Source: a virus. Taken from it: DNA of 64,000 bases. The notes beneath the pieces were generated by a model. That model saw only the letters and a list, made by a program, of their open reading frames with translations. It did not search any database and was not told the origin of the DNA. The translations under genes and the position numbers were made by a program. The stretch spans positions 46,271-110,270 of IMG/VR virus record IMGVR_UViG_3300021087_000857. One strand, written 5' to 3'. The number at the start of each line of letters is the position of its first letter. The stretch's first letter is position 1. This document shows, piece after piece, positions 5,107-48,633 of the stretch.

Positions 5107-6279
5107 ATGAACAAAACAGCAGAAGAAAGAATTACCCAGTCCAGAGTTAGGTTGCTATTAACTAAACCTTTCTTTGGGCAACTAGCGGTAAGATTAAAAA
5201 TTGAAGATGCAAGTTCATATTTGCCTACTGCGGCAACAGATGGTAGAAGGTTTATGTTCAATAGAGAGTTTGTTGATTCTCTAAATGATGAGATGCTTGA
5301 CTTTTTAGTAGGACATGAAGTATTGCATTGTGTGTTTGATCACATGCAGGCACGTGGTGATCGTAAGCCTCAACTATTTAATGCGGCGGCTGACTATAAC
5401 ATTAACATGACGCTTGTAGAACAAAACATAGGTAAGCCAATTACTGAAGATAAACTAGAAGGCGGCAAGATTTGTTTGGACTGGAAATATCAAGGTTGGA
5501 ACAGTTATGAGATATATGATGACTTGCTAAAGACTCAGCAAGATGCTAAAGGCATGGATGTGCATATGGACGAAATACAACCCGGTGACGAAGATGGCGA
5601 AGGTGGTCAAGGTGTTGAAATGTCTGAAGAAGAAAAGAAAGCATTAGCAGACGAAATTAAGCAGGCTACTATCCAAGCGGCACAGGCGGCAGGTGAAGGT
5701 GTACCAGATGTAATTAAACGTATGATCAGTGAATTAGTTGCACCTAAAATGGATTGGAGAGACATACTAAGAACTCAATTAGAAAGTTCACTTAAAAATG
5801 ATTTTACTTTTATGCGTCCTAGTAAAAGAAGTGGTGAAGTTATTTTTCCAGGTATGAACAAAGACGAAGAACTTAATATTGCAATTGGACTTGATACTTC
5901 AGGTAGTATTAGTCAAGATATGTTACGTGATTTCCTTAGTGAAGTACAAGGCATTATGGATCAATATCAAAGTTACAATGTACATATCTTTCAATTTGAT
6001 ACAGATGTGTATGGTGCAGATGACTTTACTAGTGATGATGGTCGTACAATGGATGAATACCAACTTAAAGGTGGAGGTGGTACAGACTTTGATGTAGTGT
6101 TTAATTACTTAGAACAGTATAACATTGAACCCGATCAACTTGTTATGTTCACAGACGGCTATCCTTGGGGTAGTTGGGGTAATGCAGATTACTGTGATAC
6201 ACTTTTTGTTATTCACGGTGATAAGCAAAAAAGAATTCAATCACCATTTGGAGTTACAGTACATTATGAAGCAGCTTAA
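5107..6279 (+). CDS. metallopeptidase-like plus VWA-like (CoxE/DUF2201 type) protein, MoxR partner
   Basis: 390 residues in two parts. The N-terminal putative metallopeptidase domain has a zinc-binding HEVLH at 70-74. A glutamate/glycine-rich linker sits near 160-180. The C-terminal VWA-like domain has a MIDAS DxSGS motif (LDTSGSIS) near 262-268 and a later GGGGTDFD. This is the standard partner of MoxR ATPases, encoded directly upstream. Pairs of this kind are known to activate or chelate cofactors in other proteins; the target here is unknown. The last 14 nt overlap the next start. Confidence 0.82.
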   Translation: MNKTAEERITQSRVRLLLTKPFFGQLAVRLKIEDASSYLPTAATDGRRFMFNREFVDSLNDEMLDFLVGHEVLHCVFDHMQARGDRKPQLFNAAADYNINMTLVEQNIGKPITEDKLEGGKICLDWKYQGWNSYEIYDDLLKTQQDAKGMDVHMDEIQPGDEDGEGGQGVEMSEEEKKALADEIKQATIQAAQAAGEGVPDVIKRMISELVAPKMDWRDILRTQLESSLKNDFTFMRPSKRSGEVIFPGMNKDEELNIAIGLDTSGSISQDMLRDFLSEVQGIMDQYQSYNVHIFQFDTDVYGADDFTSDDGRTMDEYQLKGGGGTDFDVVFNYLEQYNIEPDQLVMFTDGYPWGSWGNADYCDTLFVIHGDKQKRIQSPFGVTVHYEAA

Positions 6280-7417
6280 ACTATTAGCAATACTACTTTG
6301 TATGGCACTTCCTGCTCATGCAAAAGTTAAATCTAACGATATTACTTTTCCAGGTAATTTTTATACAGATGATATAAAATCATGTGAAGCAGTACAACCT
6401 GTATCATTTACTAATAATAGAACTGTTAATATCATGGAAGGGTTAATTGGTTATGATTGGCATGCTGATCACTCAACAAATAGCAACTCACGTGATGTTC
6501 ATCATCGAAATATAACTGTACCAATGAATATGTTAATGGCGGCAACACATAAAGCACTTGGCAATAACATTCAGTCTGAAATAGAAAATGCTAAAAACTT
6601 GTTATTAGATTTAGCTAAAGCAGATACTTTGTACGATAGTATTGGCTATATTGAAGTAAAAAAGAAACCTGATTGCTATGCCGGTGGAGATGTAAATGCA
6701 CCTTGTTGGTATCATGAATATGAATTTGCAAGAAATGTATTTTCAAATTACATGATTACTGCATTGTGGCTAAAAAATGAATTAAACGAACAAGAATTTA
6801 AACTTGTAAACAAGTATATCAAAAAGATGTACAAAAAGTTTATAAAGCCAACAGAATTTAAAAGTCAAGAACAAGGTTTCTATGCTATGGCTAACGGTGG
6901 CACATCAGTATTAGTTTATGCATCTTGGACAGATAATAAGAAACTTGCCGCAAAAGAAATAAATTTTAGATTTAAAGAAATGAACAGGCTATTTTATGAA
7001 GATGGTTATATCAATAATAATTCATTTAGAGGATATAGAGCTCAATGGTATCATTCTTATGGGTTAGACATTGCACTTGGTTATGTTTATATTGCTGAGT
7101 TATGGGGTGCAGAAGTACCAACTAAATTACAAAACAAATTAGTTAAAGCATCTAAATTAGTTAATCTTGCAATAACTGATTGGGACAAGTTTAAAAGTAG
7201 AAAGTATATTGGTGAAAATCACAATGCACTTAATAATCCAGCAGATGCTATAAAACATACTCACCAATTTGCAATTGCAATAGATACACTAATGCTAGAA
7301 GTAACCAACGTAGAACTAGAGTACGATCCTAAATATCTTGGAAAAAGAAAGTATCAAATTACACAATCCTATGGAATAGATGAATTAATAGGATTTCCGT
7401 CAGGATGTATACAATGA
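6266..7417 (+). CDS. secreted alginate-lyase-like (PL5-type) polysaccharide lyase
   Basis: 383 residues beginning with a clear signal peptide (MKQLKLLAILLCMALPAHA, cleaved after AHA). An in-frame start at 6125 would sit deep in the preceding gene and is rejected. The segment DGYINNNSFRGYRAQWYHSY, followed by IALGYVYIAELWG, resembles the alginate lyase core (DGxxxxEExRGxRAxxYHxxxL..AEL), consistent with an all-helical toroid. It may degrade host or biofilm exopolysaccharide. The assignment rests on this partial motif likeness, so it is moderate. Confidence 0.5.
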   Translation: MKQLKLLAILLCMALPAHAKVKSNDITFPGNFYTDDIKSCEAVQPVSFTNNRTVNIMEGLIGYDWHADHSTNSNSRDVHHRNITVPMNMLMAATHKALGNNIQSEIENAKNLLLDLAKADTLYDSIGYIEVKKKPDCYAGGDVNAPCWYHEYEFARNVFSNYMITALWLKNELNEQEFKLVNKYIKKMYKKFIKPTEFKSQEQGFYAMANGGTSVLVYASWTDNKKLAAKEINFRFKEMNRLFYEDGYINNNSFRGYRAQWYHSYGLDIALGYVYIAELWGAEVPTKLQNKLVKASKLVNLAITDWDKFKSRKYIGENHNALNNPADAIKHTHQFAIAIDTLMLEVTNVELEYDPKYLGKRKYQITQSYGIDELIGFPSGCIQ

Positions 7418-15490: not shown

Positions 15491-16539
15491 TGAGTTGGTA
15501 CAAGAACCTACATAAATTACAACTTGACCCAACAAGTCATTGTAATGCAAGATGCGGTGCTTGTGCTAGAAATATATACGGTGGTGAAACTAGACACGAC
15601 TTGGAATTAAAACATTTTGACTTAGAGTTATGGAAAAGAATAGCAATCGAAGACACTAAAGAGTGCTACATAAATCATTTAAGTCTAAATGGAAATTGGG
15701 GCGATGCTTTAATGCACCCAGATATAATAGAAATAATTGAAATTTGGAATACATATCATCCAGAAAGTGAAATGGCAATAGCAACAAATGGAAGCCTACG
15801 TAGTACAGAGTTTTGGAAAAAGTTAGCCAACGTACTAAGAAACACTCCTCGACATAGTCTTGAATTTTCAATGGATGGAATGGAAGATACACATCACATT
15901 TATAGAAGAAAAACATCACATTCAAAGTTAGTAGATAATATTAAAACTTTTGTAGATGCAGGTGGAACTGCAAACATATATATGACTTTATTCGAACACA
16001 ACAAACACCAAATTAAAGAAGTAGCAAACTTATCTAAAGAATTAGGTGCTGATGGATTTTATATAAGGCATAGTCATCGTAGTAAGATGAAAATTATAGA
16101 CGGTGAAGAACGATACGATATAGAAGGTTATTTTCCAAAAATAATAAAAGGCTCTTTTACTTTTCCAAAAAATAAAAAAATAAATAGTGATGCAAGAGAT
16201 AGTAAAATACACATACAAAATAATGAAAAAATTAAACCAAATACAACAAGTAAATGTCCTTGGAAACAACAACACAAAGTACAAATTGATCCATGGGGAA
16301 TAATATGGCCTTGTTGTTATGTAAGTAAGTATGGTGGTGGTGGGTCAATGACAGGTTTTAATATGGACGAAATTTTTTCACCAGGCAATGATAATATTAT
16401 TAATAATGTATTTGAACAAAATGATGTAAACAAGTATACCTTAAAAGAAATATTAGAAAATAAATGGTTTAATACAACAGTAGATAATGCAATAGCAAAG
16501 TCTGAATGGAATATTTGCAATGAAACTTGCGGAATATAA
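15490..16539 (+). CDS. radical SAM enzyme with C-terminal SPASM-like domain (array member 3)
   Basis: 349 residues. The core motif is very close to the N-terminus, C18-x3-C22-x2-C25 (SHCNARCGAC). The C-terminal third has a SPASM-like cluster region: a CPW segment, DPWGIIWPCC, and two Cys in the last residues (CNETCG). This is the usual core-then-SPASM order, unlike most of the array. It is a tandem duplicate of the next gene, with core cysteines at identical positions. SPASM enzymes often act on peptides or sugars; the substrate here is unknown. Confidence 0.88.
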   Translation: MSWYKNLHKLQLDPTSHCNARCGACARNIYGGETRHDLELKHFDLELWKRIAIEDTKECYINHLSLNGNWGDALMHPDIIEIIEIWNTYHPESEMAIATNGSLRSTEFWKKLANVLRNTPRHSLEFSMDGMEDTHHIYRRKTSHSKLVDNIKTFVDAGGTANIYMTLFEHNKHQIKEVANLSKELGADGFYIRHSHRSKMKIIDGEERYDIEGYFPKIIKGSFTFPKNKKINSDARDSKIHIQNNEKIKPNTTSKCPWKQQHKVQIDPWGIIWPCCYVSKYGGGGSMTGFNMDEIFSPGNDNIINNVFEQNDVNKYTLKEILENKWFNTTVDNAIAKSEWNICNETCGI

Positions 16540-28251: not shown

Positions 28252-28810
28252 GATATTATGTACAGGAAATCCAGAGTTTGGAGTAGCAAGTGCTATAGCA
28301 GAACGCTGGCCTGATACAACATTTGTTAATAGAACAGATTGGGGCTACGATTTAACGCAAAATGGCTATAAAACTAAGTTAGCCGAAAAGGCTCTTAATT
28401 ATGACGTCTTTATTAACTGTAGTGCATTATGGCAGTACCATCAAACTTTGCTACTAGATGTAGTCTATAAGAACGCCTTAAAGAACCTTAAACGACTGCA
28501 TATAGTGTCGTTGGGCAGTACAACAGACAGAGCTACCAAAGGTAGCGATTGGCATTATCAACAAGAAAAGAAGGCTTTGCGTAGTACAAGCAACGCATTA
28601 GGGTTAAAAAGCATTTGGGCTGGTGGACCTAAAGTAAGTTATGTTACATTCGGTACATTAGAAAACAATGCACACAAGCATCCAGGCAGAGCAGTAATGC
28701 AGTTAAATGATGCAGTAGACATGATTGAGTATGTAATTAATATGCCATATCATTTAAATGTAAATGAACTAAGTATAGACCCTATACAGACGGATTGGCC
28801 AAATGAATAA
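28244..28810 (+). CDS. short-chain dehydrogenase-like Rossmann protein
   Basis: 188 residues from ATG 28244 (overlap of 8 nt with the previous gene); an ATG at 28220 is less likely. CTGNPEFGVASAIA at the N-terminus resembles the glycine-rich nucleotide loop of SDR enzymes. IVSLGSTTD fits the Ser strand, and HYQQEKKAL provides the YxxxK catalytic pair. It is short for the family (about 250), so some loops are reduced. It would oxidise or reduce a hydroxyl/keto group with NAD(P). It overlaps the next gene by 8 nt. Confidence 0.65.
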   Translation: MYKILCTGNPEFGVASAIAERWPDTTFVNRTDWGYDLTQNGYKTKLAEKALNYDVFINCSALWQYHQTLLLDVVYKNALKNLKRLHIVSLGSTTDRATKGSDWHYQQEKKALRSTSNALGLKSIWAGGPKVSYVTFGTLENNAHKHPGRAVMQLNDAVDMIEYVINMPYHLNVNELSIDPIQTDWPNE

Positions 28811-29975
28811 ATTTTGCTACATGCCTTGGCATGCAATTACGCTAAGTGCAAATGGTGACATTAAGCCTTGTTGTCAGTTTAGTAACAAAGGGCGTATGCC
28901 TAATACTGAACATGACACTATTATGGAAAACTTTAATAGTGAGCGTATGCAAGACTTACGCAAAGACTTTTTAAAAGGTGTACAACCTAGTGCTTGCAAC
29001 AGTTGTTGGGAGAGAGAAGATTTAGTAGGGCAAAGTAGACGCTTATGGTTTAATAAGAAGTTTATGAAATTTAATGCAGATTTTATAAACGGCAACCACC
29101 CTACAACATATGATGTTCCTAACCCTAAGTTCTATCAAGCAGACATTAACTTATCAAATGTATGTAACTTAAAATGTCGTATGTGTGGAAGTTGGGCAAG
29201 CAATAGTTGGTTTGACGAAGAATTAGCACTTGCTAAAATAGACAAACGCTACGAGAAAAATAGTAATCCTATTCCATTGCAACAATATGGATTAGAAGAT
29301 TTACGCAATATGCTACCGCATCTAAAAGATGTAAAACGCATAGACTTTAAAGGTGGTGAGCCCATGATGGCAAAACATCACAATCAATTCCTACAATGGC
29401 TCATTGAAGAAGGTATGACTGATGTAGAATTATTTTATACAACAAACGGCACAGTTGTTAATCCTAAAATATTAAACTTGCTAAAACAGTTTAAACATGT
29501 TAGTATATGTTTTAGTATAGAAGGCACAGGAGAGCTATATAGATACATCAGAGGTGGCAAATATCAATTAGAAGATTTTGAAAAAACACTAGCAATGTAC
29601 AATGAATTAGAAAATGTAAAAATTATGTTCAATGTAACACTGCAAAATTATAACGTTTTCAACTTGCCAGAATTGCATTTCTTCCTTCACGAAATGGAAG
29701 ATAAATATAGTAAAGTAAGTGCAAACAGTAGTTTCACTACTATCTGTAACAAACCAGCATATTTAAGTCCAATGAACTTACCAGATGATTTACGAGATCA
29801 AGCAATTAAAAACTTATCTCTGTTTGATGATTTTGACAAGCTAGTAGAGAGTATGAAGACTAGAACATTTAATCCTGAGCTATGGGAAACATTTATTAAC
29901 TTTACAAATGACTTAGATAAAATGCGAGGCGACAGTGTAAGGGATGCAGTGCCTCAACTAAAGGAATATTTTTAA
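28803..29975 (+). CDS. radical SAM protein with N-terminal twitch-like domain (array member 10)
   Basis: 390 residues. FCYMPWHAITL start, KPCC pair, CNSCWEREDLVGQSRR, core motif CNLKCRMCGSWAS and KGGEPM. The ending DKMRGDSVRDAVP is the family form. It overlaps the next gene by 1 nt. The fuller conservation of all auxiliary cysteines argues for an intact second cluster. Confidence 0.88.
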   Translation: MNKFCYMPWHAITLSANGDIKPCCQFSNKGRMPNTEHDTIMENFNSERMQDLRKDFLKGVQPSACNSCWEREDLVGQSRRLWFNKKFMKFNADFINGNHPTTYDVPNPKFYQADINLSNVCNLKCRMCGSWASNSWFDEELALAKIDKRYEKNSNPIPLQQYGLEDLRNMLPHLKDVKRIDFKGGEPMMAKHHNQFLQWLIEEGMTDVELFYTTNGTVVNPKILNLLKQFKHVSICFSIEGTGELYRYIRGGKYQLEDFEKTLAMYNELENVKIMFNVTLQNYNVFNLPELHFFLHEMEDKYSKVSANSSFTTICNKPAYLSPMNLPDDLRDQAIKNLSLFDDFDKLVESMKTRTFNPELWETFINFTNDLDKMRGDSVRDAVPQLKEYF

Positions 29976-30691
29976 TGCTAGTAGCTTTAGAAGACAATCA
30001 CGCACCAAAAGACGAACTACTTAGAGTAGAATGGAACTTGGGTAAGCGTTGCAACTACAACTGTAGTTATTGTGGAAATGAATTACACAATAAGACTAGC
30101 GACCATATGAGTTGGGAAGTATACACTGCTACAATAGATAAAATAGTAGAAGCATCAAATGGTAAAAAGATTAAAATTAGTTTTACAGGTGGTGAGCCAT
30201 TTGTACACCCACAGTTTATTGACATGTTAAAATATGCTAAAGAGAACGGCGTATACAGATGTAGTGTAACAACCAACGGAAGTCCTCCACCTAAGATATA
30301 CAAAAAAGCATTGCCGTATTTACATTATGTTATTATAAGTTATCACTTTGAATTTGCATATCATGAGAAAGTAATTAATAACATTACAGGTATGTGGGCA
30401 GACATACAGGAATATAGAGCTAAAGATGACTACAAAGGAATGCATGTACATATTATGGCGTTGCCTGGACACATGGATAAATGGAAAGAAATTATAAACG
30501 AATTAAAAGAGTGTGGCGTTGAATATACAGTTCGTAAAATTAGGCCACGTGTTAATGAAAACCGTACAGGTTGGAATAAACCATATGCTGACGGTATGTT
30601 AGGGCAACATCCTATACATGAAGAAACTGAAAAGTTTGCTGGACAATATTATAGTGTAGAAGAAGAAAAATGGTTAACTGAAAATGTATGA
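29975..30691 (+). CDS. radical SAM core protein without auxiliary domain (array member 11)
   Basis: 238 residues, core only. C26-x3-C30-x2-C33 in GKRCNYNCSYC, then FTGGEPFVHP and a TTNGSPPP strand. No cysteine cluster lies before or after the core. The core closely resembles that of array member 14 (RFCNYNCSYC), which has a C-terminal cysteine domain. A free-standing copy of that domain is encoded at 31861, so this may be one half of a split enzyme. It overlaps the next gene by 8 nt. Confidence 0.86.
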   Translation: MLVALEDNHAPKDELLRVEWNLGKRCNYNCSYCGNELHNKTSDHMSWEVYTATIDKIVEASNGKKIKISFTGGEPFVHPQFIDMLKYAKENGVYRCSVTTNGSPPPKIYKKALPYLHYVIISYHFEFAYHEKVINNITGMWADIQEYRAKDDYKGMHVHIMALPGHMDKWKEIINELKECGVEYTVRKIRPRVNENRTGWNKPYADGMLGQHPIHEETEKFAGQYYSVEEEKWLTENV

Positions 30692-31874
30692 AGATAAAGT
30701 AAGAGAGTGGTTAATGCAACCCGGTAATAACTTTTGTGCGTTGCCATTTACACATATGGCAATAGAAGCCAACGGCGATATAAGACCTTGTTGTATGGGC
30801 GATGAATTTGATTTAAACATTAGAAATAAAACAATACAACAAGTATACAACGACCCAAAAAGACTACAATTTGTAGACAGTTTTAGACGAAACGAACAAA
30901 ATCCTGCATGTCATAAATGTTGGAAAGATCCAGAAATAAGAGCTAATTTTTCAACATCACCTCATGCCAGAGAAATAACAAAACAAGCAATGGACGGAAT
31001 AACACCTAAGCATGAATTAAAATGGTTAGAAATTAAACCAGGAAATAGATGTAATTTAAAATGTAGAATATGTGGAGTACATAATAGTAGTAGTTGGACA
31101 AAAGATACTGCGGCAATAGAAGAGCCCAAAGTAAAGTATAAAAACAGCGAAGCATTTAAATATACGCAATCATGTGATTGGATAGATGATCCAGAATTTT
31201 GGAATGATCTAAATCAACTAGAATCAATAGAGTATTTGCATTTTATGGGCGGCGAACCTTTTATGGTTCCTGAGCACTTTCAATTAATAGAACGTTTAGT
31301 AAACGATCCTAACATTGATACTAGTAATATTACAATCGGATACAATACAAATGGAACATACTTTCCTAGCAAAGAAAACTTTGAGCTATACAATAATTTT
31401 AAGCAAGTAAACTTTGCATTAAGTATAGATGATATTGATGAGAGATTTAACTACCAGCGTAAATTAGCTAATTGGGAAGAAGTAAAAAGTAATATTAAGA
31501 ATTTTCAAAAATTAAATAAAGACCAATATTTTGTACATTTGGATCCTACTATAAGTATATATAATATATTTTATTTAAATGAAATCACTAAAACATTTAA
31601 TGATTTAGGATATCATAATTTTATTAAACAACGACATTTTGTAAATAATGGGTATAACGCAATTCACATATTACCACAACATATAAAAAGTGTTATTGTA
31701 GAAAAGTACAAAGACACTGATAACATATGGATTAAGCGAGCAGTAGATTATATGAATAGTCAACCAACAGATAATAACTTATGGGAAATATTTAAAAAGA
31801 ATACTACTAGATTAGATTCATTAAGAAGCGAAAACTTTCAAAACACATTTAAGGAATTTTATGAGCACTTTTAA
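30684..31874 (+). CDS. radical SAM protein with N-terminal twitch-like domain (array member 12)
   Basis: 396 residues. FCALPFTHMAI start, RPCC pair, CHKCWKDPE, core motif CNLKCRICG with NSSSWTKD, and MGGEPF in place of the usual TGGEP. The block after CHKC differs from relatives (SPHAREITK). It lies between the core-only enzyme (29975) and the lone cysteine domain (31861), overlapping both. Confidence 0.88.
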   Translation: MYEDKVREWLMQPGNNFCALPFTHMAIEANGDIRPCCMGDEFDLNIRNKTIQQVYNDPKRLQFVDSFRRNEQNPACHKCWKDPEIRANFSTSPHAREITKQAMDGITPKHELKWLEIKPGNRCNLKCRICGVHNSSSWTKDTAAIEEPKVKYKNSEAFKYTQSCDWIDDPEFWNDLNQLESIEYLHFMGGEPFMVPEHFQLIERLVNDPNIDTSNITIGYNTNGTYFPSKENFELYNNFKQVNFALSIDDIDERFNYQRKLANWEEVKSNIKNFQKLNKDQYFVHLDPTISIYNIFYLNEITKTFNDLGYHNFIKQRHFVNNGYNAIHILPQHIKSVIVEKYKDTDNIWIKRAVDYMNSQPTDNNLWEIFKKNTTRLDSLRSENFQNTFKEFYEHF

Positions 31875-32187
31875 AAACATTATTGTACACTATGAAGATG
31901 GTACAAGCGAAGAAGATAACGTAAACAGTGTTATGGCACGTGATGAAAATGATTTTCGTGGATGGGAATGTTGGGCTGGTGTACAAAATATTACTATAAG
32001 TAACACAGGTGATGTGTATAGAGCTATATGTAAAGTGGGTGGCAAACTAGGAAACATTTATGATGGGTTTGAAATGCCTAAAGAAACTATTATATGTAAT
32101 AAGCCAAGATGTGTATGTGCTGCTGATGTACAGTTATCAAAAGCACTACCAGAACATGTGCATAAATTAAGGGTAGGAAATGAATAA
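31861..32187 (+). CDS. free-standing twitch/SPASM-like cysteine domain
   Basis: 108 residues with C37, C57, C79, C84 and C86. The stretch GWECWAG, a 19-residue gap, C57, then KLGNIYDGF and CNKPRCVC lines up with the C-terminal domain of array member 14 (GWECSSG, SYSCGDQPLGNI, ICTTNAC). Upstream likeness continues (YEDGTSEE versus FRDSKGDP). It has no radical SAM motif. It probably binds an auxiliary Fe-S cluster and may pair in trans with the core-only protein at 29975. It overlaps genes on both sides. Confidence 0.7.
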   Translation: MSTFKNIIVHYEDGTSEEDNVNSVMARDENDFRGWECWAGVQNITISNTGDVYRAICKVGGKLGNIYDGFEMPKETIICNKPRCVCAADVQLSKALPEHVHKLRVGNE

Positions 32188-33508
32188 AGAATTTTGGAAC
32201 AGTGATAAAACAAATAAGTATGAAGCTTTTTATGAACATGCAGTAGATAAACTAAAAGGTCTAGATGTAAACATACATACTTTTTGCCCATTGCCTTTTA
32301 CTCATGTAAGTACTATGCCACATGGAGAAATAAAGTTATGTTGTAGAGCACAACCACCTCAACATGGACCTAACCCAAATGTTAAAGACAAAGATTTTAA
32401 TCTCAAAGAATACTGGCAAAGTGAATACATGAACGAAGTACGTGATGATCTTATATTAGGTAAAAAGCACTTCCAATGTAAAAATTGTTGGAAAATGGAA
32501 GACAATGAAATTGTTAGTTTACGTATGAATAGGCTTATGGATCTTATGGATAATGAGATCTATAGAAAGAATATAGAATATTATATAAGACATAGAGAAA
32601 TAGAATTTAAAATTCCACTCATTGAACTTAAATTAAGTAACGTATGTAACTTTAAGTGCAGAATGTGTTGGCCAAAAGACAGTTCAAAATGGGTTACTGA
32701 TTGGGATAAAGTAAAAGAGTTTTACAGTGTGGGTGATAAACGTTATATAGAAGAAATAGTAGACAGCAATGATTTACGTAAAACTCGTGTAATGAATTTA
32801 TATGAAAAGGACGAAGAATTTGTAGGGAACCTAATTGAGCTTATGGAACACGTAGAAGAACTTGAATTTGCAGGTGGCGAGCCTCTTATGGACCCAATTC
32901 ATTATCGTGTACTAGACAGTATTCCGCACCCAGAAAATGTTACATTAAAATATAGTACAAATTTAAGTATTATGAAAATGGGTAAACATAGCGTAATTGA
33001 CTTGTGGAAGAAATTTAAAAAAATTAAATTAACAGTTAGTATAGACGGACACCGAGAACTTAATCATATGATTCGTAGAGGATCTGATTGGGATTTATTA
33101 AAAAGCAATATTGAACTAGTTAAAAGAGAACTTGATAACTTAGATGTTATTAAAGGAACTACTTGTATAAGTGGTATGAATGCTGCGGAATTAGGCGAAA
33201 CAGCGGAAGCAATTGTATTTGAACTAGGCATACACTGGCATACAAGCCGTGTACAATGGCCTGATTTCCTACATGCAAATGTATTAAGCCCAGAGCAACT
33301 ACAAACAGGAATAGACGGCTTAAAACGGGTATTTGATAGCTTAAACACGCCAGAAAGATGCGAAACTCCTAGGCGTACTATGTTTGAAACACATTTAAAT
33401 GGTGCTATTAGTTGGTTAGAAACATGTATAAAAGATAATAAACATACAGAAAAATACGAAGCATTTAGTAAATTTAATGAAACAATAACAGATATGGATA
33501 AAGAATAA
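32180..33508 (+). CDS. radical SAM protein with N-terminal twitch-like domain (array member 13)
   Basis: 442 residues with an extra ~32-residue N-terminal extension before the FCPLPFTHVST motif. It has an LCC pair, CKNCWKMEDNEIVS, core motif CNFKCRMCWPKDSS and AGGEPL. The ending TDMDKE is shorter than the usual LRG ending. It overlaps the next gene by 1 nt. Confidence 0.88.
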   Translation: MNKEFWNSDKTNKYEAFYEHAVDKLKGLDVNIHTFCPLPFTHVSTMPHGEIKLCCRAQPPQHGPNPNVKDKDFNLKEYWQSEYMNEVRDDLILGKKHFQCKNCWKMEDNEIVSLRMNRLMDLMDNEIYRKNIEYYIRHREIEFKIPLIELKLSNVCNFKCRMCWPKDSSKWVTDWDKVKEFYSVGDKRYIEEIVDSNDLRKTRVMNLYEKDEEFVGNLIELMEHVEELEFAGGEPLMDPIHYRVLDSIPHPENVTLKYSTNLSIMKMGKHSVIDLWKKFKKIKLTVSIDGHRELNHMIRRGSDWDLLKSNIELVKRELDNLDVIKGTTCISGMNAAELGETAEAIVFELGIHWHTSRVQWPDFLHANVLSPEQLQTGIDGLKRVFDSLNTPERCETPRRTMFETHLNGAISWLETCIKDNKHTEKYEAFSKFNETITDMDKE

Positions 33509-34677
33509 TGAGTGATAAAGATTTAAAATGGAGTGAATACGACTTTACAAAAACACCGTATGAAGATATAGTTCGAGTAGGACAACGTACTATGTTATAC
33601 AGAGATATGTTTACAGTAAGTTGGTTGCTAGGTAGATTTTGTAACTACAATTGTAGTTATTGTTGGCCTTATGCTAGAAGTAATAGAAAAGATCACAGAC
33701 CTACAGAACTTAACTTAAAAACAATCGATGAGATTAAACGTCAGGCACGTGAGCGTGGCTTTAATAGTTTCCACTTTAGTTTAAGTGGAGGTGAACCTAC
33801 GTTCCATCCAGGCTATTTAGATATGTTAAAACATTTAAGTGATGATTGTCATAACACCAATTATACAAGTGTACATATGACAAGTAACTGTAGTCGTAAC
33901 ATGAAATGGTTTAAAACTTATGTGGACTATGCTTCAAAGTTTCATAGAGCTAGTATTACTTGTAGTTTACATGTTGAGCATGTTGACACAACTGAGAAGA
34001 TGCAGGATCTTGCAGACAAACTTATACTATGCCAAGAACACGATGTACAAGTAACTATTAACATGGTTATGGTTCCTGAAGTTTTTGATCAATATTATGA
34101 TAATGCATTGTTTTTCCATAATCAAGGAATTAATGTTACACTTAAACCTCAATCAGACCCAACTGCAAGTAGAGTAGTTGATGGTTATACAGAGGAAATG
34201 AAAAAGAAATTACACAATGGTATGCCACAACGTGGATACACAGAAGCAAAAGCAAAACAAAAGAAGTTAGTAACTAGACCAGACCCAGCATTTAAAGTAG
34301 ACATAGAAGATGAATATAGAAAACAGACCGCAGCAGTTCCGTGGCATATGCAAGTAGAATTCAGAGATAGCAAAGGTGATCCTTATTACATGGATCAAGC
34401 AGAACGCTTTAATGCATTTGACTTTAACAAGTTCAAAGGTTGGGAATGTAGTAGTGGATACCGCAGTATAATTATACGTGAACCAGATGGTTCTATTAAA
34501 CGTAGTTATAGTTGTGGAGATCAACCGTTGGGTAATATTGAAACAGGATTTAAGTTATTTGACGGTCCTGAAATATGTACTACCAATGCTTGTGTAAGTA
34601 GTGCTGATAGTAAAATTCCAAAACGTGCACCAGGAACAAAAATGCCTCTATTTCCTGGTGATGAAACTTTTAAATAA
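33508..34677 (+). CDS. radical SAM enzyme with C-terminal twitch-like domain (array member 14)
   Basis: 389 residues. Core motif C45-x3-C49-x2-C52 (RFCNYNCSYC) and LSGGEPTFHP. A C-terminal cysteine domain follows after about residue 310: GWECSSG, SYSCGDQPLGN, EICTTNAC. It is the fused form of the two-gene set 29975 plus 31861. A Lys-rich helical segment near 230-260 links core and tail. The stop is followed directly by the ATG of the next gene. Substrate unknown. Confidence 0.87.
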   Translation: MSDKDLKWSEYDFTKTPYEDIVRVGQRTMLYRDMFTVSWLLGRFCNYNCSYCWPYARSNRKDHRPTELNLKTIDEIKRQARERGFNSFHFSLSGGEPTFHPGYLDMLKHLSDDCHNTNYTSVHMTSNCSRNMKWFKTYVDYASKFHRASITCSLHVEHVDTTEKMQDLADKLILCQEHDVQVTINMVMVPEVFDQYYDNALFFHNQGINVTLKPQSDPTASRVVDGYTEEMKKKLHNGMPQRGYTEAKAKQKKLVTRPDPAFKVDIEDEYRKQTAAVPWHMQVEFRDSKGDPYYMDQAERFNAFDFNKFKGWECSSGYRSIIIREPDGSIKRSYSCGDQPLGNIETGFKLFDGPEICTTNACVSSADSKIPKRAPGTKMPLFPGDETFK

Positions 34678-35745: not shown

Positions 35746-36414
35746 TTATTCTACATTATTGCGAGATTCATATGCAGAACTATTGCCTTGAACAACATTA
35801 TCACCTACGCCTGTAAAAACATTGTTACTGCTAGATCCAAAACCTTGAGCCTGATTTTTAAAAGCAGAATCATGGTCTCTAGCAGTGTTTTCTCCAGTAT
35901 CTGGCTGATCGTGTATAGCATTTATAATACGTTGATCTACTCCATCACGCTTTAGTTGACTCTTTTTTGTTGGTAATGGACTTCTTTCTATATTATCAAA
36001 TTGTATTTCAAAACTTTTACTTTGATCTTTACGATCGCCATCTGCTTTTTTAAACTTGCCTTTTTCTGGTTTTCCTTTACCTGCCGCTTCGGCTAATTCT
36101 TGCATTTTTTTAGCATTATCTTCTGTGTACGGAATTCTGTAATATACTGGTTGTAGTTCTCCAACTGGTCTTACATTAAAATAGATATGTGGCTTTTGTA
36201 CTTCAACCCATATTACTTCTACTTGTTCTTCTGGTATACCATCAATTGGAGTACCTTGTAATGCAAGCATTGTATATCCTGAAAAAATACTTGATACTAA
36301 AGCAAGTGGAATTAAAAAGAATGTTAATGTATTATTTCTGCCTAATTGTATTAGTGCATATACTGTAAGTATTGCTAACCCAAGTAATAATCCTATTCCT
36401 GCATATATAATCAT
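35746..36414 (-). CDS. membrane protein with long cytoplasmic-type tail, third gene of the ExbB/ExbD-like operon
   Basis: 222 residues. Two hydrophobic segments at about 2-22 and 29-52 (TFFLIPLALVSSIFSGYTMLAL) are followed by a polar tail. The tail has a beta-like part (VEVIWVEVQKPHIYFNVRP), a Lys/Gly-rich linker near 110-130 and an Asn/Gly/Ser-rich end. No family was recognised. It overlaps the ExbD-like gene by 4 nt, so it is likely part of the same complex. Confidence 0.65.
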   Translation of the reverse strand: MIIYAGIGLLLGLAILTVYALIQLGRNNTLTFFLIPLALVSSIFSGYTMLALQGTPIDGIPEEQVEVIWVEVQKPHIYFNVRPVGELQPVYYRIPYTEDNAKKMQELAEAAGKGKPEKGKFKKADGDRKDQSKSFEIQFDNIERSPLPTKKSQLKRDGVDQRIINAIHDQPDTGENTARDHDSAFKNQAQGFGSSSNNVFTGVGDNVVQGNSSAYESRNNVE

Positions 36415-37052
36415 TGTCCTACTCCTGTTCCTCTAGTTGGAACAACATCTCTTACATGTTTAAATATTGACTTAACATTACCTTTACCGTCAACACTAAA
36501 TCCAGGCAATCGTTGTATTTCTCTGTTTACTATAAATTCACCTTGTATACTATATAGTTGTCTGAATGCATTAACTTTCATTACGGTTACTGTATAAGGC
36601 ACAACTGCCTCGCTTTGTCTTTTTGAATAGGCATGTACTGCCACATAGTAATCACCAGGAACAATGCCTCTAAGTGTTATTGTTTCTCTGTTTGTTCTAA
36701 GAAAAACATCTTGGCCATCTATTGTAATTTTATCATTAGATGTGCCTAAGTCATCTCTATCTAAGTGTAGTGGAGTATTTTCTCTATTACTAAAACCTAC
36801 TGGTCTGTCGTTGTTTAACTGTACCCATATGTCCAAATCTGTTGAAGATTCAGAGTCCCATTCTAACACAACCATAAACTCTGCTTTTACAGGTATGTCT
36901 GCCTTTTTTGCAATAGGATTGATAAGAAGAAATGCTATAACAAATAGCATAACAAAACCAATTAGTACATTAAATAATAAATCATTAAATGCTAAGTTAG
37001 ATCCTGTTCTCCTTTTCTTTCCTGCGAAAAAGTTTTCTTGATTTTTAGGCAT
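36411..37052 (-). CDS. ExbD/MotB-like single-span protein with periplasmic beta domain
   Basis: 213 residues. The N-terminal basic tail has a FNDLLFNVLIGFVMLF span at about 22-45, in the place where ExbD/TolR have their proton-path Asp; an Asp (D24) sits just before the span. The outer domain has WDSESSTDLDIWVQLNNDRPVGF and ETITLRGIVPGDYYVAVHAYS, resembling DUF2135/YfaP-type beta folds and not the usual ExbD domain. It overlaps the ExbB-like gene by 8 nt. Role unknown. Confidence 0.65.
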   Translation of the reverse strand: MPKNQENFFAGKKRRTGSNLAFNDLLFNVLIGFVMLFVIAFLLINPIAKKADIPVKAEFMVVLEWDSESSTDLDIWVQLNNDRPVGFSNRENTPLHLDRDDLGTSNDKITIDGQDVFLRTNRETITLRGIVPGDYYVAVHAYSKRQSEAVVPYTVTVMKVNAFRQLYSIQGEFIVNREIQRLPGFSVDGKGNVKSIFKHVRDVVPTRGTGVGQ

Positions 37053-41121: not shown

Positions 41122-41514
41122 CTATAATTTTAACTTTATTAGTAATTGCATCATATCTAATACTTCACTTGGTTTGGCATAATATCCTTCTTCTATCCAT
41201 TCTTTTTTTACTGATATATCTGGACAAAGAAAACTATGATCTCCATTACCTACATTAAACGTGCAATAATTTGATAGTTTTGCAACTACTGGTAAGTGCG
41301 ACATGCCTAATCTTGGTGCTAAGTATATTCTATGATTGCCTGTTTCTAATCTAATATTTCTACTGTAAACTCCTATACCAAGTATTATGGGTTCTAGTAT
41401 GCCATTTTGCATTATATCTTCCATAAGTGCCAAATCATCATTTGGACTAGGTGTAGGACACTTCCATTGTTCTAAAAGTTTTACAGGCAGTTGCTCTACA
41501 AACGGCTCTAGCAT
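41122..41514 (-). CDS. ParB/Srx-fold-like protein
   Basis: 130 residues. The segment MQNGILEPIILGIGVY followed by LETGNHRIYLAPRLGMSHLPVV resembles the ParB N-terminal fold (loop with GNHR in place of GERR). The N-terminus is short and there is no HTH, so it is not a partition protein. Small phage ParB-like proteins may act as nucleases or CTP-binding switches. It overlaps clpP by 1 nt. Confidence 0.55.
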   Translation of the reverse strand: MLEPFVEQLPVKLLEQWKCPTPSPNDDLALMEDIMQNGILEPIILGIGVYSRNIRLETGNHRIYLAPRLGMSHLPVVAKLSNYCTFNVGNGDHSFLCPDISVKKEWIEEGYYAKPSEVLDMMQLLIKLKL

Positions 41515-42155
41515 TAATAGGTGTCTACGATAGCGTCTGCAATTCCGTGTTTAACTGCCTCTTCGGCTGTTAGCCACACATCTTCTGGTGGTAATAATAT
41601 TTCTTTAATTTTCTTTTCAGATAAGCCAGTACATTTTTTATAATGATTTAACATACGTTCTGATGATAATTCAAACTCTTTAACACGAGCAAATAGTTCG
41701 TGTTCTTTACCGCCTGAACCCCATGAATATTGATGTGATAAAATACTTGTGTTGTTTGTTAACACACGCTTGCCTTTAGTACCTGCCATAAATGTAAGTA
41801 CACCACATGATGCAATCATTCCTAATCCTACAGTTTTAATAGGCAATGCAGAACCTTTCATTACATCAATAAGACCAAATGCGGCGTGTACGCTACCACC
41901 TGGGCTATTAATAATAAGTGTAAGTTCTTTAGGACGCTCACTGTCTGGCAGTAAGTTCTTTTCAATAATCCAGTTTACTACTGGCTTTGTTGATTCATAT
42001 GTAAAGCCATCAGCAAAATAGTAAATACCTGATTCGTACAATACTTGTCCAGGTTGCTTTGGTGGACCCATAGGTGTTTGTGGATTTGCAGCACCTTTTT
42101 CTTCTAATGCTTGGCCCATTTCGCCAATTGCTTTTTGTAATTTTTCTAAGTTCAT
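41514..42155 (-). CDS. clpP: ClpP-type serine protease subunit
   Basis: 213 residues. The catalytic triad is S116 (GMIASCGVL), H141 (TSILSHQY) and probably D192 (LPPEDVWLT). LIINSPGGSVHAAFGLIDVM forms the oxyanion and handle region. The usual residue after the catalytic Ser is Met or Ala, here Cys. ClpP forms a barrel that degrades proteins fed by an AAA+ unfoldase; no ClpX/A is seen in this window, so it may use a host one. It follows a GroES-like gene with no gap. Confidence 0.9.
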   Translation of the reverse strand: MNLEKLQKAIGEMGQALEEKGAANPQTPMGPPKQPGQVLYESGIYYFADGFTYESTKPVVNWIIEKNLLPDSERPKELTLIINSPGGSVHAAFGLIDVMKGSALPIKTVGLGMIASCGVLTFMAGTKGKRVLTNNTSILSHQYSWGSGGKEHELFARVKEFELSSERMLNHYKKCTGLSEKKIKEILLPPEDVWLTAEEAVKHGIADAIVDTY

Positions 42156-44168: not shown

Positions 44169-44552
44169 TTATTCTACCTTTGGTAATTCTATTGCATTTG
44201 CGTTTGCTTCAACTTTTTCCATATCAAAGTTTACGCTCTCTCCACAACCACAACTGCTTGATGCTGATGGGTTTACTACTTCTAACATTGTTCCCATTAC
44301 GTCTTGTTTTAACTCAAGTGTGGTTCCAAATAAAAACATAATGCTAGAACTGTCAACGGCCATTTTTCTTCCGTTATCCATTATAATAACATGATCTGCT
44401 TTTTTGTCAAGTTCATTTTCTTCTTTTAATTTCCAAACATAACTGAATCCTGCACAACCGCCTCCTTTAAGGCCTAACACAGGAATTTTACCTTCGTTCG
44501 CATCGCTGATACCAGTTAGATGGTTCATTGCTTTTTCTGTGACTTTAATCAT
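44169..44552 (-). CDS. A-type iron-sulfur carrier (IscA/HesB family)
   Basis: 127 residues. The three conserved cysteines are in GGGCAGFSYVW (near 33) and SSSCGCGES (near 99 and 101). A-type carriers receive clusters and pass them to apo-enzymes. Together with the Nfu, SufT-like and ferredoxin genes at 47.4-48.6 kb it suggests a phage Fe-S delivery set, useful for the fifteen radical SAM enzymes. It overlaps the next gene upstream by 1 nt. Confidence 0.92.
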   Translation of the reverse strand: MIKVTEKAMNHLTGISDANEGKIPVLGLKGGGCAGFSYVWKLKEENELDKKADHVIIMDNGRKMAVDSSSIMFLFGTTLELKQDVMGTMLEVVNPSASSSCGCGESVNFDMEKVEANANAIELPKVE

Positions 44553-47366: not shown

Positions 47367-47717
47367 TTATTCCTCGTCTGTAATATCTATAGGATCATCA
47401 AATCCTGGTCTATCCATAAGCCCCATGCCAGATGGGTCGCTCATATAATATGGATCGTTAAACATTGGATCGTCTTCGCTTGTTACACCTTTAATCTCTG
47501 GAACAAAATGCATAAGTGTAGATTCTACGCCCATTTGTAGAGTAGCAGTGCTACTAGCACAACCACTACAACTTCCGCTCATTTGTGTGTGTAATATTCC
47601 TGTTTCTTCATTAAAGTTTAGTATGTTTATTTGTCCACCGTGCATTGCTACGTTAGGTGCAACGTATTCTTCCATAACTTCATCTACTTGTTTAAGTATT
47701 TCTTCTTTAGTTCTCAT
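47367..47717 (-). CDS. Nfu-type iron-sulfur scaffold domain protein
   Basis: 116 residues. GSCSGCASS provides the CxxC that binds a bridging [4Fe-4S] cluster, preceded by VAPNVAMHGGQI, the usual Nfu start. The C-terminal 35 residues are Asp/Pro/Gly rich and not part of the fold. It lacks the degenerate A-type half of E. coli NfuA. Its role would be carrying clusters to client enzymes such as radical SAM proteins. Confidence 0.9.
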   Translation of the reverse strand: MRTKEEILKQVDEVMEEYVAPNVAMHGGQINILNFNEETGILHTQMSGSCSGCASSTATLQMGVESTLMHFVPEIKGVTSEDDPMFNDPYYMSDPSGMGLMDRPGFDDPIDITDEE

Positions 47718-47818: not shown

Positions 47819-47986
47819 TTATTCTCCTTGTTCTACCGCTTCTATACGGTGATGAGGATATGCCTTCGGGCGTACCTCTTTTAATTTTTCCATGTATTGT
47901 TGTGCTTCAGTTTCAGTTTCAAAACGTGCAACTGCTACCTCATCATGAATTCGAGGTGTATAAATTATTTCGTACATATTATTCAT
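47819..47986 (-). CDS. unknown small protein
   Basis: 55 residues from ATG 47986, overlapping the ferredoxin gene by 8 nt; ATG 47977 is an alternative. The sequence is alpha/beta ([37 protein letters not shown]). An open extension up to 48064 lies over the ferredoxin frame and is not used. No family was recognised. Confidence 0.5.
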
Positions 47987-48332
47987 CGCCCTTTCCTGGC
48001 TTGTAAGATAAATGTTCTCGTTTATCTTTAACTTTTGCCCATTCTTCTGCATCTGGCGGTACATCTTCTGGCCGTGCTAATGTAATATTAGGCCATTCCT
48101 CAGACATGTCTGCATTAAACTTATACCAAAAATCATAATCTTCTCCCTCTAATGCATTGTCTGGAACAATAGCATCTACAGGACATTCTGGTTCACATAC
48201 ACCACAGTCAATACACTCATCTGGGTTAATTACTAAAAAGTTTTCACCTTCATAAAAACAATCCACAGGACAAACTTCTACGCAGTCCATGTGCTTACAT
48301 TTAATACACTCGTCTTTAACTAAATATGTCAC
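47979..48332 (-). CDS. 7Fe-type ferredoxin (3Fe-4S plus 4Fe-4S)
   Basis: 117 residues. Cysteines C9, C12, C17, C21, C25 and C40, C43, C46, C50 match Azotobacter ferredoxin I with a one-residue shift. Thus C9/C17/C50 would hold a 3Fe and C21/C40/C43/C46 a 4Fe cluster. The ~65-residue C-terminal tail is also typical of that type. Such ferredoxins are low-potential electron donors; radical SAM enzymes need one. It is encoded between the Fe-S delivery genes. Confidence 0.9.
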
Positions 48333-48333
48333 C

Positions 48334-48633
48334 TTATACTCCTAAAATTAATTTTGCTTCTTCACTCATCTTATCTGGACCAAAAGGCGGATCAAATGTG
48401 ATCTGAACATCACAAGTTTTTATGCCATCTACCATACATGCATCGTGAACGTCTTGTTTGATTTGGTCTGCCATTGGGCAAAACGCACTTGTTAACGTCA
48501 TTACAATAACAACGTTTGAACTTACTATATTTATTTCATATATTAAACCTAAGTCATATACGTTAATACTGATTTCTGGGTCATATACCTTACGTAAATT
48601 ATCAATAATTACTTGTCTAATTTCTTTAGTCAT
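48334..48633 (-). CDS. SufT/MIP18-family (DUF59) iron-sulfur maturation protein
   Basis: 99 residues. [18 protein letters not shown], the conserved Cys in [13 protein letters not shown], and [18 protein letters not shown] match the DUF59 domain used by SufT, PaaD and eukaryotic MIP18. These help insert Fe-S clusters into target proteins. It lies next to the 7Fe ferredoxin and Nfu genes. It starts 1 nt after leucyl aminopeptidase ends. Confidence 0.9.

Follow-up and report, generated by a model that had tools for sequence, protein, structure and literature searches.

In SPASM/Twitch enzymes of the radical SAM (rSAM) superfamily, such as anSME, PqqE, MoaA, BtrN, SuiB, EpeE and BlsE, a cluster in the core is used to cleave SAM, and an auxiliary cluster binds the substrate or passes an electron. 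A canonical SPASM domain has seven cysteines. The role of the auxiliary cluster in these enzymes is an open question, and it is hard to test because removal of the domain tends to break the protein. The STM4011 family (NF038073) is likewise described as a single chain with a core and a C-terminal domain. In the lipoyl synthase LipS1/LipS2, two rSAM-family proteins take the place of one enzyme (PMC9585515). However, LipS1 and LipS2 contain two clusters apiece, and we rejected them as a precedent for the locus described here, in which the core and the auxiliary domain are on different chains. Electron transfer in vitro has been observed between PapB and QueE, which are separate and unrelated rSAM proteins (PMC10470005), and this makes an auxiliary cluster on a separate chain chemically plausible. 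A T4-like marine genome contains 12 rSAM genes and Fe-S genes similar to those described below (Nishimura 2017, PMC5332604), and in 2020 rSAM cassettes were reported within the variable region of pelagimyophages (PMC7029224). A phage array of many rSAM and Fe-S assembly genes in one genome is therefore already known in itself, and the available parts of these two reports describe no split enzymes, unlike the array analysed here. A stand-alone SPASM/Twitch-like subunit or a core/auxiliary split was not found in the literature that we searched, mostly without subscription papers. The enzyme class is known, but separately encoded core and auxiliary-cluster subunits, in several families and in both phages and bacteria, appear to be new.

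The window, that is, the whole stretch of DNA that was analysed, is the right-hand 64 kb of the 110,270-base IMG/VR virus record IMGVR_UViG_3300021087_000857. The DNA polymerase of this record has its nearest relatives in large phages, for instance Agrobacterium phage Atu_ph07 (45-49% identity). The record has at least 18 rSAM genes, 13 of which score above the cut-off of NF033640 (N-terminal-twitch rSAM). On the opposite strand are genes for Fe-S assembly, a ferredoxin and ClpP, which likely support the numerous rSAM enzymes. The features discussed below are as follows (window coordinates).

28803..29975, + strand: g28803, N-terminal-twitch rSAM gene, upstream flank of the conserved block, with orthologues upstream of the core gene
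29975..30691, + strand: core subunit, rSAM partial-barrel domain, 238 aa, recognised by Pfam PF04055 and conserved motifs
30684..31874, + strand: member 12, a complete rSAM protein of the N-terminal-twitch type (NF033640, E=2.2e-83), between the halves and outside the pair
31861..32187, + strand: predicted auxiliary-cluster subunit, stand-alone cysteine domain, 108 aa, recognised by alignments and homology to the C-terminus of the 33508 protein
32180..33508, + strand: g32180, N-terminal-twitch rSAM gene, downstream flank of the conserved block, with orthologues downstream of the cysteine gene
33508..34677, + strand: single-chain paralogue with a core and a cysteine domain; its separate clade and low rank indicate that it is no fused form of the pair
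41514-42155, - strand: ClpP
44169-44552, - strand: A-type carrier family
47367-47717, - strand: NifU-like
47979-48332, - strand: ferredoxin
48334-48633, - strand: FeS_assembly_P

We consider it likely that 29975 and 31861 encode the two subunits of one rSAM enzyme, which arose by fission of a single-chain ancestor, with the core making the radical and the 108-aa subunit carrying an auxiliary cluster and docking on the core. The original prediction proposed a two-subunit enzyme as one of its readings, and the analysis supports it, since the halves are kept as a co-occurring pair under selection. The 29975 protein contains only the core, as had been predicted. Its residues 21-174 match Pfam Radical_SAM (PF04055, E=3.1e-17, above the cut-off), and a Pfam search revealed no auxiliary domain after it. 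The protein has CNYNCSYC (CxxxCxxC) at residues 26-33 and GGEP at 72-75, and C26, C30, C33 and G72-G73-E74-P75 are invariant in an alignment of eight core orthologues. The CxxxCxxC motif and the GGE-type SAM motif within PF04055 place it in the radical SAM superfamily. It is not a member of NF033640, to which member 12 and its neighbours belong: it has no N-terminal domain and scores 42.6 bits against the 170-bit cut-off. It is 37% identical to the N-terminus of the 33508 protein (E=3e-16). The protein closes with a helix-like tail, YYSVEEEKWLTENV, and in fused relatives such a tail precedes the auxiliary domain. Only 29975, a QueE-like protein and core2 are rSAM cores without an auxiliary domain in the 110-kb record, and 31861 is the sole auxiliary domain in the record that does not adjoin its own core, which by elimination favours the pairing of 29975 with 31861.

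The 31861 protein also has the predicted content, a cysteine domain and nothing else. No rSAM match was found in it by Pfam search, and its residues 19-108 are 34% identical to residues 296-386 of the 33508 protein (E=5e-13). Alignments revealed five invariant cysteines, C37-x12-G-x6-C57 ... C79-x4-C84-x-C86, and C37, C57, C79, C84 and C86 could ligate one cluster. This pattern is not the seven-cysteine motif of SPASM, and the protein did not match the SPASM models PF13186 and TIGR04085 at the thresholds used; five conserved cysteines instead of seven and the lack of a Pfam SPASM match count against the two-subunit reading. By position and fold the domain is of the SPASM/Twitch type; this was judged on a fused relative and not directly on 31861. 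Among curated models, 31861 matches only NCBIfam NF038073 (STM4011), in the C-terminal region of the model (positions 196-254 of 278, E=6e-5), and the bacterial cysteine protein described below matches it as well (E=2e-5). However, the cysteine proteins score 22-24 bits (31861, 22.4 bits over 59 positions) against a whole-protein cut-off of 200 bits, and 31861 is thus not a member of STM4011. PHROGs has no family for 31861, neither 31861 nor 33508 has a relative among 50,697 records of isolate phages, and searches of PDB sequences with 33508 and with a profile of the cysteine domain gave no match.

The split is conserved. Both halves are present as separate genes in 14 IMG/VR contigs (11 distinct; the window and 13 further ones) and in three Bdellovibrionia genomes, and no orphan half was seen: each complete locus with one half in these contigs and genomes also has the other. 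Sequencing or assembly error is excluded because the split recurs in phage contigs and in Bdellovibrionia assemblies. One of the bacterial pairs lies on a 917-kb chromosomal contig with ordinary metabolic genes alongside. In the class Bdellovibrionia, the domain was found in 20 of 144 genomes, clearly as a separate gene in only three of them and mostly within long frames in the rest. Ten other seemingly stand-alone cysteine ORFs were rejected, as all of them lie within about 180 bp of a locus edge and are thus most likely cut-off fused genes. An alignment-based scan of viral contigs for distant stand-alone cysteine proteins found zero new loci, and one that used the core alignment did add some. 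In two Bdellovibrionia genomes (G002 and G003, loci L299-L302), a large chromosomal rSAM cluster mirrors parts of the phage array, with genes for an N-twitch rSAM protein, the split pair, an Asp/Asn-hydroxylase family protein, an aminotransferase-like protein and an amidinotransferase-like protein. This likeness suggests that a biosynthetic cluster was exchanged between phages and these Bdellovibrionia. The neighbours common to phage and bacterium, namely the Asp/Asn-hydroxylase family and the aminotransferase-like and amidinotransferase-like proteins (the latter two recognised only from weak resemblance), suggest a biosynthetic cluster and nothing beyond that.

Gene order around the halves is also conserved. 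The core gene is immediately preceded by an orthologue of g28803 in Bdellovibrionia (44% identity) and in most phage loci, and in L009-L017, L193, L194 and L273/L274 an orthologue of g32180 immediately follows the cysteine gene. The order g28803-core-cys-g32180 is common to phages and bacterial chromosomes and is the conserved unit. In the window, member 12 lies between the halves, as had been noted, and overlaps them by 8 and 14 nt. Elsewhere in the window clade, member 12 alone is also between the halves in L010 and L013, member 12 together with another split rSAM pair in L009 and L012, and only the other split pair in L015; L193 likewise has such a pair. Member 12 is absent from between the halves in the bacterial loci and in L015, L016, L017, L193, L194 and L197. 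In bacteria and in all but one of the five distant phage copies, the two genes lie side by side, with 1 nt between them (L016) or an overlap of 4 nt (L017, L194 and bacteria) or 8 nt (L197). Therefore, member 12 is a late, replaceable insert. It also evolves much faster than the halves: dN/dS was 0.26-0.38 for member 12, 0.045-0.10 for the core, 0.03-0.075 for the cysteine gene and 0.06-0.095 for the intact paralogue 33508, with dS near saturation in several pairs. Both halves are under strong purifying selection, similar to that on 33508. The exact position of member 12 between the halves would fit a relic, in which its insertion broke a fused gene and left two functionless halves. This is highly improbable, since both halves are strongly selected and keep their catalytic motifs, and the split exists without the insert in L016, L017, L194, L197 and bacteria. 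The overlaps of 4 or 8 nt in L017, L194, L197 and bacteria could in turn allow a single polypeptide to be produced still, by programmed frameshifting or read-through. However, one to three whole genes stand between the halves in the window clade and L193, similar overlaps join unrelated neighbours all along the array, and the auxiliary gene comes first in some pairs of a second family (see below); we give this explanation almost no credence.

The relatives of the two halves indicate where the pair came from. Searched separately, each half ranks the same family of single-chain phage rSAM proteins of about 300 aa first (L196, L208, L028, L074 and others), with 36-43% identity in the core and 40-50% in the cysteine domain. 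Unlike these nearest relatives, the split pair has a stop and a restart in the loop that joins the two domains. When the fetched loci were surveyed with HMMs, 242 distinct single-chain proteins with both domains were counted, and complete stand-alone genes for the cysteine domain were found only in the set of 14 contigs and three genomes; these counts are not a census because the loci were fetched with the window halves as queries. Two further arrangements were observed in these loci. In L016, a single-chain core-plus-cysteine protein (6342-7268) is encoded directly 5' of the split pair in the same operon. In L028 and many similar loci, two convergent single-chain core-plus-cysteine rSAM genes (L028:1073-1975, +, and 1955-2992, -) overlap at their 3' ends.

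Phylogenetic trees, which were rooted at the midpoint only, placed the split clade among single-chain rows for each of the two domains separately. In the joint tree, 12 of 13 split rows formed one clade (100/99) nested among single-chain rows, and within it the bacterial rows branched from among the phage rows (96/90). L197 fell outside this main clade, which would mean a second fission, although a single origin was not rejected (AU p=0.087). Judged by these sequence comparisons, fission of a single-chain ancestor is well supported, and the family may have undergone one such event or more. It had been proposed that the locus shows gene fission and fusion in action, with 33508 as the fused counterpart. 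The fission part is supported, since the pair is nested in a single-chain family, whereas fusion is not supported for 33508. This protein is not the closest single chain, being 183rd for the core and 121st for the cysteine domain in a ranking of about 310 single-chain relatives, and with its kin it forms a different clade (100/100). The ranks and the joint tree thus reject 33508 as the fused ancestor of the pair, but the AU test does not, since it still allows the split rows to group with the 33508 clade (p=0.148). Separate genes might instead be ancestral and the single-chain proteins later fusions, as midpoint rooting would permit and as a permuted chain with the cysteine domain first (L303, see below) might suggest by showing that the domains move as modules. 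We regard this order of events as improbable because the split rows are a nested clade in the joint tree, and because those of a third family form a tight clade within single-chain rows.

The site of the proposed fission was located on L196:5992-6963, the closest single-chain relative, for which AlphaFold2 gave a confident model (pLDDT 89, pTM 0.87). The split core gene stops just past the stretch aligned to helix 213-227 of L196, to which the tail of the 29975 protein aligns, and the cysteine gene starts at the stretch aligned to strand 232-236. On this model, the cut is in the inter-domain loop between the helix and the strand, and no structural element is broken. A Foldseek search of the PDB with the L196 model retrieved SPASM/Twitch enzymes over about 310 columns, nearly the full chain, at 13-16% identity (BlsE, E=1.8e-10; SuiB, EpeE, MoaA, PqqE, anSME and BtrN). 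Thus, as predicted through L196, the pair would resemble these enzymes in having a partial-barrel core and a C-terminal auxiliary-cluster domain, and it differs from them in being encoded by two genes, in its five conserved cysteines against the canonical seven, and in this low identity. Folded alone, 31861 gave a model of low confidence (pLDDT 67, pTM 0.47), which was too uncertain for a fold search. The cysteine domain within the L196 model mostly reached 91-97, although the alignments differ between the two models. The poor model of 31861 alone may mean that a partner is needed, or may merely reflect a thin alignment.

Besides this pair, split pairs were found in two other rSAM families. 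One such pair, the second in this genome, lies upstream of the window at a distance of about 10 kb, and examples of the two families are as follows.

G000:C1:35546-36178 (L189:15546-16178): 210-aa core of the second split pair
~36168-36527 (L189 ~16168-16527): 119-aa SPASM-like protein of the same pair, overlapping the core gene by ~11 nt
L175:3421-4306; L260:622-1624, - strand; L300:17475-18584, - strand: second-family (type-2) pairs in reversed order
L124:4500-5210 and 5207-5668: third-family pair

The second family has about 15 split pairs in the loci at hand, and its tree implies two or more transitions between split and single-chain forms. The auxiliary gene precedes the core gene in L175, L260 and the bacterium G002, and this rules out frameshift or read-through fusion there. 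The third family (L124, L130, L133, L138 and L139) has a core of 236-246 aa and a cysteine protein of 153-163 aa, encoded by overlapping genes, and its split rows form one tight clade (100/100) inside single-chain proteins. In L135:5271-6331, both third-family parts are in one frame with a linker of about 30 aa, but a shift near 5690 interrupts the core frame. A class-mate of the Bdellovibrionia genomes encodes a single chain in permuted order, in which the cysteine domain precedes the rSAM core (L303:2394-3095, cut by the contig end). The splits, the reversed orders and this permuted chain show that both domains are modules which have been joined, separated and reordered. On the evidence of gene content and trees, the core/auxiliary split arose several times, across three rSAM families. 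Detachable auxiliary subunits might be a general design in these rSAM clusters, with fission repeated in three families because a free subunit can be exchanged between cores to give a combinatorial set of enzymes; we think this unlikely.

In the proposed two-subunit enzyme, the 29975 subunit would hold the SAM-cleaving [4Fe-4S] cluster and generate the 5'-deoxyadenosyl radical. The 108-aa subunit would hold an auxiliary iron-sulfur cluster and, by analogy with the C-terminal SPASM/Twitch-like domain of the single-chain relatives, would dock on the core, where the cluster would bind the substrate or carry an electron. Physical contact and joint catalysis of the two proteins, as well as the cluster content, are what we infer. 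The 31861 protein might instead act for several members of the array and not for 29975 specifically, either as a free iron-sulfur or electron-transfer protein or as an adaptor that binds substrate. It is translated amid about a dozen rSAM proteins, member 12 separates it from the core in the window phage, and the transfer between PapB and QueE (PMC10470005) is an example of such exchange between unrelated rSAM proteins. However, the other array members have their own N-terminal twitch/SPASM or C-terminal domain, the cysteine domain is joined to a 29975-type core in the single-chain relatives, and the cysteine gene directly adjoins such a core where there is no insert, so that a shared role is rather unlikely.

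A helper domain that is built into single-chain enzymes thus probably works as a detachable subunit in this marine phage. Naturally separate subunits would allow the auxiliary subunit to be added, omitted, swapped or isotopically labelled in trans. The pair also carries a warning for annotation: a short "core-only" rSAM gene and a small cysteine-rich gene nearby can be the two halves of one enzyme.
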